From Acinetobacter piscicola (GTDB lineage: Bacteria; Pseudomonadota; Gammaproteobacteria; Pseudomonadales; Moraxellaceae): 64,000 nucleotides of DNA. The notes under the pieces are model-generated. The model worked only from the letters and a program-made list of their open reading frames with translations. It was not told where the DNA came from and ran no database searches. Below are positions 57,145 to 58,704 of this stretch, one piece after another. Location of the stretch: contig NZ_NIFO01000001.1 of assembly GCF_002233755.1 (NCBI RefSeq), positions 496,001-560,000 on the forward strand, read 5' to 3'. Numbering within the stretch: the first letter of the stretch is position 1; every line of letters begins with the position of its first letter. The position numbers were made by a program, and so were the translations under genes.

Positions 57145-57939
57145 ATGAAAGCTTCTACTATCACGATTAAAACTGAACAAGACCTTGAAAAATTACGAGT
57201 GTCTGGGCGTTTGGCTGCGCAGGTTTTAGAGATGATAGGTGAGTATGTCAAGCCGGGTGTGACAACAGAGTATTTAGATGATTTGTGCAATGATTTTATT
57301 GTCAATACATTGAAAGTGATCCCTGCAAATGTGGGTTATTATGGTTATACCAAAACGACCTGTATTTCTCCAAATGAAGTAGTTTGTCATGGTATTCCTT
57401 CTAATAGCATCGTTTTGAATGATGGCGATATTATCAATATTGATGTTGCGATTATTAAAGATGGATATTTTGGTGATACCAGTCGGATGTACTATGTGGG
57501 TAGTGTAAAACCTGAAGCAAAGAAGTTGGTTGACACAACTTATCTTGCAATGGTCGCAGGTATTCATACAGTGAAGCCTGGAGCAACATTGGGTGATGTA
57601 GGTGCTGCAATTCAACAAGTTGCAGAGCAAGAAGGTTATTCAATTGTTCGCGAATATTGTGGTCACGGCATTGGTAAGGTATATCATGAACAACCCAATG
57701 TGCTACATTATGGACAGGCGGGACATGGCTTAATTCTTAAAAAAGGCATGGTCTTTACCATTGAACCGATGGTCAATGCAGGTAAAGCAAAAGTTAAAGA
57801 ACTGAAAGATGGTTGGACTGTTATTACCGCAGACAAGTCTCTATCTGCACAGTGGGAACATATGATTGCAGTCACGGATACCGGATTTGAGTTGTTGTCG
57901 CCTTGGCCAGAAGGTACAGGGTTTTATCCTGAAATTTAA
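57145..57939 (+). CDS. map: Methionine aminopeptidase type I
   Basis: Map removes the initiator methionine from nascent proteins. From the ATG at 57145 the protein has 264 residues; the five metal ligands are D100, D111, H174, E207 and E238 (in NIDVAI, GDTSR, CGHGIG, TIEPMV and QWEHMI), and H82 in VCHGIP is the conserved active-site histidine. The frame extends to a TTG at 57130, but the ATG gives the usual N-terminus MKASTITIKTEQDLEKLR. The C-terminal PEI tail is normal. It may be a paralogue of the main map copy usually found next to rpsB. Confidence 0.93.
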   Translation: MKASTITIKTEQDLEKLRVSGRLAAQVLEMIGEYVKPGVTTEYLDDLCNDFIVNTLKVIPANVGYYGYTKTTCISPNEVVCHGIPSNSIVLNDGDIINIDVAIIKDGYFGDTSRMYYVGSVKPEAKKLVDTTYLAMVAGIHTVKPGATLGDVGAAIQQVAEQEGYSIVREYCGHGIGKVYHEQPNVLHYGQAGHGLILKKGMVFTIEPMVNAGKAKVKELKDGWTVITADKSLSAQWEHMIAVTDTGFELLSPWPEGTGFYPEI

Positions 57940-58096
57940 TACCTATACAACTTTTGTCTAAGAATTGTGATTCAATACGGGTTTAATTGTTTTTTTGTCT
58001 TATGTTTTTGCATTATTTATCACATTTTTTTTTAATTAATTTAATTGTTTAGATCTATTAATACAAAAAATTAATTGTTTAATCGTTTTTAAGTAT

Positions 58097-58125
58097 TTGT
58101 TTAAATAGTGAGCGGTGTGTAATAT
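58097..58125 (+). promoter_or_regulatory. Candidate promoter of an intergenic RNA
   Basis: TTGTTT (58097-58102) and TAATAT (58120-58125) are separated by exactly 17 bp. No start codon with a ribosome binding site follows before a strong terminator 80 bp downstream. Confidence 0.5.
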
Positions 58126-58131
58126 ACGTTT

Positions 58132-58211
58132 CAGATTCTAGCTGTAGTTTCTACTTTATTTAACTTATTTTAAGTTTCTAAGCTTATCCATCATAGGGTA
58201 AGCTTTTTTTT
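58132..58211 (+). ncRNA. Candidate small RNA between map and the Sbal_3080-like lipoprotein
   Basis: The predicted transcript of about 80 nt starts after the TAATAT promoter and ends at an intrinsic terminator: AAGCTTATCC (58180-58189) pairs with GGGTAAGCTT (58196-58205, one T-G wobble) around a 6-nt loop, followed by eight T. A further small hairpin AACTT/AAGTT lies before the terminator. The region contains no frame worth calling. The terminator could instead be a late terminator for map, 240 bp downstream. Confidence 0.45.
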
Positions 58212-58260: not shown

Positions 58261-58704
58261 TTATTTACTTTTAGGATCAACCAATTGCTCCACTAGCTCG
58301 TCAACTTTAGTGTCCGTGCTACGCCATTTGTTTAAAGCGAGACCACCTTTTCCTTTTAATCTAAATTCTGCTTCAGAAACGATTCGTCCTTGTTTCATGA
58401 GAGTAAATTTTGCATAAGTTAAATAAGTCACAAAATCCCATGAGCGTAATGCTGTGTAATTCATCGTTGTTTCACACATCACAGGTTTTGAATTTTCAGG
58501 GTAAATTCGTGCATTAATGTTGTATCGCCTGAAACTACGTATAATAGATTGTTCAAACCCATCGATTGTCACTTTTGAGTTATGAATAACACATATTTGT
58601 TTTACAGATTGTGGTTGAAATCCGTCATTATTTTTCACTTGAATTGAAGTGCATGCATTCAGTGTTAAAGCAAAAATTCCAACTGTAAATAATTTCTTTT
58701 TCAT
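58261..58704 (-). CDS. Sbal_3080 family-like lipoprotein
   Basis: The 147-residue protein starts MKKKLFTVGIFALTLNACTS, a type II signal peptide with the lipobox LNAC and lipidation at C18. The mature part has ICVIHNSKVTIDGFEQSIIR and ends in LALNKWRSTDTKVDELVEQL, which resembles the Sbal_3080 lipoprotein family found in gammaproteobacteria. Function is unknown. It lies 13 bp after benE, so the two probably form an operon; whether the lipoprotein works with the transporter is not known. Confidence 0.72.
   Translation of the reverse strand: MKKKLFTVGIFALTLNACTSIQVKNNDGFQPQSVKQICVIHNSKVTIDGFEQSIIRSFRRYNINARIYPENSKPVMCETTMNYTALRSWDFVTYLTYAKFTLMKQGRIVSEAEFRLKGKGGLALNKWRSTDTKVDELVEQLVDPKSK

Follow-up and report, generated by a model that had tools for sequence, protein, structure and literature searches.

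A candidate small RNA gene downstream of map in Acinetobacter piscicola and its relatives on chromosomes and plasmids of the genus

Introduction

Does the intergenic DNA that follows the methionine aminopeptidase gene map in Acinetobacter piscicola hold a small RNA (sRNA) gene of its own and, if so, does that gene stand alone? We addressed this question in a window of 64,000 nucleotides, the whole stretch of contig NZ_NIFO01000001.1 that was analysed, for which a preliminary description had proposed a discrete and possibly new sRNA between an orphan promoter and a strong terminator. On the basis of sequence comparison, the plus-strand interval 58132–58211 is very likely a real sRNA gene, and we give a probability of about 0.75 to the fuller reading, that it is an independently transcribed member of a multi-copy, Acinetobacter-specific family of sRNAs that would be bound by Hfq and act through seed pairing. 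What had been described as a single sRNA is thus, by the same comparison, one member of a family that reaches plasmids. As far as tested, the family is new and absent from Rfam; the kind of RNA is known, and its spread over chromosomes and plasmids is unusual.

Results

The element in the window

The features on which the proposal was built are all present (Table 1): the arrangement TTGTTT-N17-TAATAT (58097–58125), a terminator with a 10-bp stem and eight T that lacks a T-run in the minus direction, a distance of 240 bp from the end of map to that stem, and no credible reading frame in between, as zero open reading frames (ORFs) of at least 20 amino acids overlap 58132–58211. In the terminator, 58180–58189 pair with 58196–58205 around a 6-nt loop, and T8 occupies 58204–58211. 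The interval 58130–58211 folds at −18.2 kcal/mol, compared with a shuffle mean of −9.4 (z = −3.4; 1 of 200 shuffles as good). Between 57000 and 59500 our terminator scanner found 2 candidates with 1.5 expected, and only the one at the element combines 10 pairs with T8. A terminator hairpin with a long U tail, as found here, is one mark of the Rho-independent, Hfq-type class of trans-acting sRNAs; an own promoter and a discrete transcript of 50–200 nt are others, of which there are signs in the sequence.

Table 1. Annotated features around the predicted small RNA, in window positions
Feature	Position	Strand	Basis or remark
Upstream box TAATCGTTTTTA, candidate regulator or UP-element site	58080–58091	+	Either orientation upstream of some other copies
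−35-like hexamer TTGTTT	58097–58102	+	Weak consensus match
−10-like hexamer TAATAT	58120–58125	+	17 nt after TTGTTT; family feature at such a distance from the core
Predicted small RNA, about 79–80 nt	58132–58211	+	R1 match, BLAST starts, fold z −3.4
5′ hairpin AGA-UU-CUA [GCUG] UAG-UU-UCU	58133–58152	+	Minimum free energy folds
Family core GCTGTAGTTTC, loop and 3′ arm, probable seed	58141–58151	+	Conservation across loci
Variable A/U-rich linker	58153–58179	+	Length and sequence differ among copies
Rho-independent terminator, 10-bp stem and T8	58180–58211	+	Scan, fold, covariation
map, type I methionine aminopeptidase, upstream neighbour	57145–57939	+	phmmer against solved methionine aminopeptidases, best E 6.7e-100
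Small lipoprotein-like ORF, convergent neighbour	58261–58704	−	Lipoprotein-like by our own reading

The two promoter hexamers share 7 of 12 positions with the sigma-70 consensus and are absent from the list of our promoter scanner, whose cut-off is 9 of 12 and which found 8 sites with 10.3 expected between 57000 and 59500. By itself, therefore, the promoter proves nothing, and the claim of an orphan promoter is weak when it is based on this copy alone; it draws its support from the comparison across copies described below.

A recurrent unit with a conserved core and a covarying terminator

BLAST searches with the intergenic DNA gave matches in 71 of 149 Acinetobacter genomes, a number that includes chance matches in AT-rich DNA beyond the element. 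Of about 105 places listed, 27 have a match beginning at query base 193 or 194, which corresponds to 58132–58133, and since transcription is expected to start 7–8 nt after TAATAT, these starts fit the predicted +1. The core occurs once in the 64 kb, and it is present (with T or A at the eighth base) in 27 of the 29 loci that were found by BLAST and not by pattern, the remaining two (L014 and L015) having slightly different forms. Our alignment A1 comprises 36 copies, the window's included, that were picked with a pattern holding the core; core invariance in A1 is therefore by construction, and the counts over the 29 loci and over the 65 hits below are fairer. In A1 a linker of variable length follows the hairpin region and leads to the terminator, in which 7 of 9 modelled pairs show compensatory changes and 98.1% of the cells are paired. 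The terminator has a covariation score of 0.287; shuffles score 0.171, none of the 500 being as high, and slid controls score 0.057–0.125. At least as many further pair types occur in 13 of 500 shuffles.

The covariance model R1 was built from these 36 copies, with the window's among them, and matches the window at 58132–58210 with 78.4 bits, a score that includes the copy's own contribution to the model. In 65 aligned R1 hits the core is exact in 48, nearly so in 5 and absent in 12, so that the core GCUGUAGUUUC is kept, exactly or nearly, in 53 of 65 hits while linkers and terminators differ. A third chromosomal type (L048, L050 and L053) has the same core with an unrelated, CCTCC-type terminator, a combination also seen at the A. 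lwoffii loci L115 and L164. It seems that core and terminator behave as exchangeable modules.

Promoter position and upstream context across copies

Distinct members of the family were counted at successive stages, in sets of 130, 149, 154 and 156 sequences; the set of 130 leaves out sequences without a −10-like hexamer or without a stable hairpin before the T-run. Among 156 distinct sequences, 63 have such a hexamer ending exactly 17 nt ahead of the core, and in 135 of the 154 that consist of core plus T-run it ends 14–18 nt ahead, which would place the beginning of the core about 8–11 nt into the RNA. The corresponding counts in control intervals are 9 of 154 at 21–25 nt, 43 at 40–44 nt and 84 at 48–52 nt, the latter two lying in AT-rich flanks, which also hold −10-like hexamers. 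At the −35-like position, several map-locus copies have GTATTTGTTTA or close forms, as judged by eye.

Farther upstream, a recurrent box (AAAAACGATTAA / TTAATCGTTTTT, in either orientation) precedes some copies at the map and grpE loci, including the one in the window, and is a possible regulator site. Its strict form, AATCG[TC]TTTT or the complement, lies within 110 nt upstream of 8 of 46 map-locus and 11 of 46 grpE-locus copies, with shuffle means of 0.02 and 0.1 and with 4 of 46 and 0 of 46 farther upstream. A shorter form, chosen after the results for the strict one had been seen, precedes 16 of 46 and 24 of 46 copies, respectively (shuffle means 0.9 and 0.7; 1 of 46 each downstream), and it is found at 1 of 28 copies at other loci and 0 of 10 copies near pdif-like sites. 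Because the box AAAAACGAT is enriched only at map and grpE copies, the siblings may be under different control.

A hairpin that would display part of the core

The 5′ hairpin typical of the 130 folded members is AGA-UU-CUA / UAG-UU-UCU, with the GCU of the loop unpaired at 0.85–0.91 and the 5′ arm more variable than the 3′ arm. When the 60 distinct 5′ arms were compared with shuffled arms, they paired better with the core (median z = −1.4; 14 of 60 at 5% or better), which gives the predicted hairpin moderate support. Such a design suggests a seed shown in a loop beneath a lid, with a U tail at the end that would suit Hfq. Within the core, UAG and UC are mostly base-paired in these folds, so that the core may be a protein-binding or stabilising element.

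Distribution within Acinetobacter

The preliminary description had proposed a covariance search over related genomes, and this search located the unit in many of them. At E ≤ 0.001, 101 of the 175 Acinetobacter genomes searched have an R1 match, and a single genome can have as many as seven; the other 74 are without a match under these strict filters. Over 244 genomes of the order, it returned the window's own matches and none in the 243 others, nine of which are shown as of the same family. The species matched include at least A. lwoffii, A. indicus, A. cumulans, A. variabilis, A. harbinensis, A. kyonggiensis, A. guillouiae, A. pragensis, A. pecorum, A. pseudolwoffii, A. terrae and A. rongchengensis. 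A simpler pattern, consisting of the core, 25–55 nt and T7, occurs in 117 of the 175 genomes, and its reversed control in 0 of 175. In a draw from Moraxellaceae it is present in 22 of 41 Acinetobacter genomes (within the 175) versus 1 of 108 others, the reversed pattern being found in three genomes, none of them Acinetobacter. Chance matches to the pattern do exist, for example at the ends of coding genes at L295 and L314. Regions around relatives were sampled at 60 places drawn from longer lists, at least two of these places duplicating earlier loci.

Many matches to the core pattern beyond Acinetobacter come from Chryseobacterium and share one gene neighbourhood (clusters of 25 and 24 proteins). 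When five of these loci were scored with R1, three reached 18.1–18.3 bits (E 0.9–1) and two were unlisted, and a Spirosoma locus reached 22 bits (E 0.17); we took these loci to be unrelated. Species with a match to the core pattern comprise at least those among the matches listed.

Chromosomal loci

The 130 distinct members, none of which comes from a non-Acinetobacter record, fall at recurrent places: 46 are downstream of map and co-directional with it, 46 lie on the opposite strand beside a divergent gene that we take from its sequence to be grpE, 10 have a pdif-like XerC/XerD site within 90 nt upstream, and 28 are elsewhere. As grpE points away from the copies that adjoin it, read-through from that neighbour is impossible and these copies are no 3′ UTR of it. 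At the map locus, the convergent position that the lipoprotein-like ORF takes in the window is mostly held in other genomes by what we read as lysR- or benE-like genes.

The source genome carries core plus terminator at three places: the map copy on C1, one on C10 that presumably lies near an argH-like gene, and one on C26 beside what we take to be an endonuclease-like ORF. At its own grpE locus (L003 1506–1586, minus strand, on C18), a 31-bit match has kept the terminator and lost the core, and is, to judge by its sequence, a decaying sibling.

The stretch after map contained no copy in 20 genomes (best score 15.8 bits, E 0.2) that had been chosen mainly for lacking R1 matches, 17 of them having none and three having one elsewhere. 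Seven of the 20, with a 264-codon map frame, appear to be A. baumannii-like. One record labelled A. baumannii (ACIN00150, L184) carries a grpE-locus copy; the contig belongs to the genome of a separate species (G048), and we suspect the label to be wrong. Simple absence from A. baumannii is countered by this record, with its doubtful label; a plasmid of that species carries a relative.

Copies on plasmids

Two types of relative are found on plasmids, and the map copy itself had no match among plasmid records. The first type, searched with a query that blends printed copies and includes the pdif-like site, matches 969 plasmid records, of which 966 are from Acinetobacter and 3 are labelled Klebsiella, with 895 matching over at least 80% of the query. 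The second type matches 118 plasmid records, all of them Acinetobacter. No annotated feature lies under the match among the matches listed (40 and 25, respectively), the gene table of the collection being incomplete.

Copies of one plasmid type have a XerC/XerD-like site just upstream, called with the pdif motif. At one locus (L387), plasmid-type copies at 2477 (+) and 3596 (−) flank a resolvase-like ORF in inverted orientation, as in a pdif module; such modules are treated in PMC12442408. On pE47_003, p1_010005 and p2AB5075, the copy is convergent with the repM operon, whose 3′ end it faces; contig C2 of genome G062 looks similar, and two other plasmids examined have different neighbours. The core-bearing relative on p2AB5075, a plasmid of A. 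baumannii AB5075, lies downstream of the repM operon (L324, around 1735–1815 on the minus strand, with the core at 1789–1799) and has no listed gene over it. Two phage records of 4–5 kb match this copy, and the other plasmid type had no match among phage records.

Comparison with known RNAs

At Rfam gathering scores nothing in the whole window matched, nor did the relatives in 20 loci, which leaves the suggestion of novelty in place as far as tested. A relaxed Rfam search gave only scores below threshold around the element, including those for two sRNAs of which it is not a member, NmsRb of Neisseria (RF02877; 14.7 bits against a gathering score of 52) and VrrA (RF01456; 17.3 bits against 50). 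A catalogue of sRNAs is reportedly given by Kroger et al. (2018). Searches for the core string or its complement in print returned no Acinetobacter paper among the matches listed, and the literature on Acinetobacter sRNAs, pdif and plasmid sRNAs, surveyed mainly by listings, yielded no description of the family.

The closest parallels are the six homologous sRNA groups that Weiss et al. (2016; PMC5320573) describe in A. baumannii AB5075, which, like the present family, are multi-copy sRNAs that share modules within a single Acinetobacter genome. By its description in that article, Group 5 (ABUWs041/048), with 13 identical residues and an accessible UUUC, could fit the core. Group 1 is C4-like and in this unlike the element; the C4 antisense RNA (RF01695), a multi-copy RNA in Acinetobacter according to the same article, has no match in the window. 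The word 'plasmid' is absent from the main text of the article, and the positions listed there end at 3.96 Mb. Aar, as described in PMC11472050, is likewise a short sRNA of Acinetobacter that has a short seed and a Rho-independent terminator ending in poly(U), and carO is among its known targets; its seed contains CUCC, however, and CTCC is absent from 58132–58211.

Searches for targets

Three crude searches for targets were negative. The exact complement of the core, GAAACTACAGC, showed no excess over the reversed pattern in 12 genomes, and the 30 contexts examined revealed no target. Likewise, AAACTACAG followed within 0–30 nt by ATG gave 146 matches versus 141 for the reversed pattern in 7 genomes (overlapping matches counted), which is no excess. 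The few GAAACTACAGC or AAACTACAG sites that recur look like conserved codons. In the plasmid loci L320–L323, no complement longer than 9 nt was found outside the copy's own antisense strand. A duplex test with 6 gene starts from the window and 11 from p2AB5075 gave nothing after correction; its best result, reached by 3.5% of shuffles, was the start of the lipoprotein-like ORF, one of the six in the window, and is not significant.

Discussion

The comparison of copies supplies a promoter at a recurrent position, a 5′ hairpin, a near-invariant loop and 3′ arm, a free linker, a covarying terminator and a set of sibling genes. From these parts we infer a course of events in which the RNA would be made and then bound by Hfq at its U-rich 3′ end, and in which the exposed GCUG loop, followed by the opened UAGUUUC arm, would serve as the seed for one or a few mRNAs present throughout the genus. 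With different promoters, and with upstream contexts that differ between a shared AAAAACGAT box at some map and grpE copies and a XerC/XerD-like site at plasmid copies of one type, the siblings might answer different conditions. The RNA encoded in the window is probably regulatory.

How else could the locus be read? Under one rival reading it would be no independent gene, and would serve as the terminator-bearing 3′ UTR of map, which might be processed to a stable RNA. Here map is co-directional and ends 193 nt before 58132 with no terminator listed between, and in most of the 20 element-less genomes a hairpin and T-run, seen by eye, come directly after map, so that the sRNA terminator may also serve map in the window. 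We nevertheless regard a mere UTR as quite improbable: besides the 46 distinct members beside opposite-strand grpE, 38 more are away from both genes, BLAST conservation often begins at the predicted +1 and not at the map stop, and the position of the −10-like hexamer recurs. The grpE-adjoining copies, the BLAST starts, the recurrent hexamer and the terminator covariation also support the original proposal of a discrete sRNA gene. Still less room is left for a short leader or small ORF, for which we found no supporting point and which is barely credible given that the element contains no ORF of at least 20 amino acids and that the length of its linker varies freely.

Two further explanations concern what the units are. 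If the 5′ hairpin were a protein-binding or sponge element, the family would titrate a factor and pair with no mRNA, a reading in keeping with the conserved loop and 3′ arm and the retained hairpin, with the presence of several copies in a genome (R1 finds up to seven) and with the negative target searches. We hold it to be unlikely, because the 5′ arm varies more than the 3′ arm, as is commoner where a seed pairs than where a protein binds a double-stranded site. Alternatively, the units might be debris of mobile repeats, module ends or MITE-like sequences that resemble sRNA genes by chance, as the XerC/XerD-like sites adjoining plasmid copies and the inverted pair around a resolvase-like ORF in L387 could suggest. 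This appears very improbable, since many species have copies at the map and grpE loci, with flanks that have diverged, and since the −10 position, the hairpin and the covarying terminator are kept despite changes in the sequence of linker and terminator.

An independently transcribed sRNA family with a shared seed over chromosome and plasmids would raise a tentative idea about the plasmid copies, which lie beside XerC/XerD-like sites and, among those inspected, often where a rep operon ends. Across hundreds of plasmids, they could be mimics that tune the same host mRNAs as the chromosomal siblings, or titrate the same factor, although we consider this rather less than an even chance. If expressed, the siblings would form an sRNA family without an Rfam entry that is present, by the model, in 101 of 175 sampled Acinetobacter species, more than half, and in nearly a thousand plasmid records. 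The family would then tie the carriage of plasmids to post-transcriptional regulation in the host, in a genus to which an important hospital pathogen belongs. For AB5075, Hfq RIL-seq (PMC12802169) and Hi-GRIL-seq (PMC11472050) data exist, and as its plasmid p2AB5075 carries a relative, a target might be readable from those data.

Other RNA elements occur in the neighbourhood of the plasmid copies. On an A. baumannii plasmid, isrK-like and C4 antisense RNA matches (L322 1733–1919, plus strand) lie about 2 kb from a family member. Matches to the ALIL pseudoknot at L317 74–190 and L306 1–105 are close to plasmid-type copies and hint at insertion sequences nearby.
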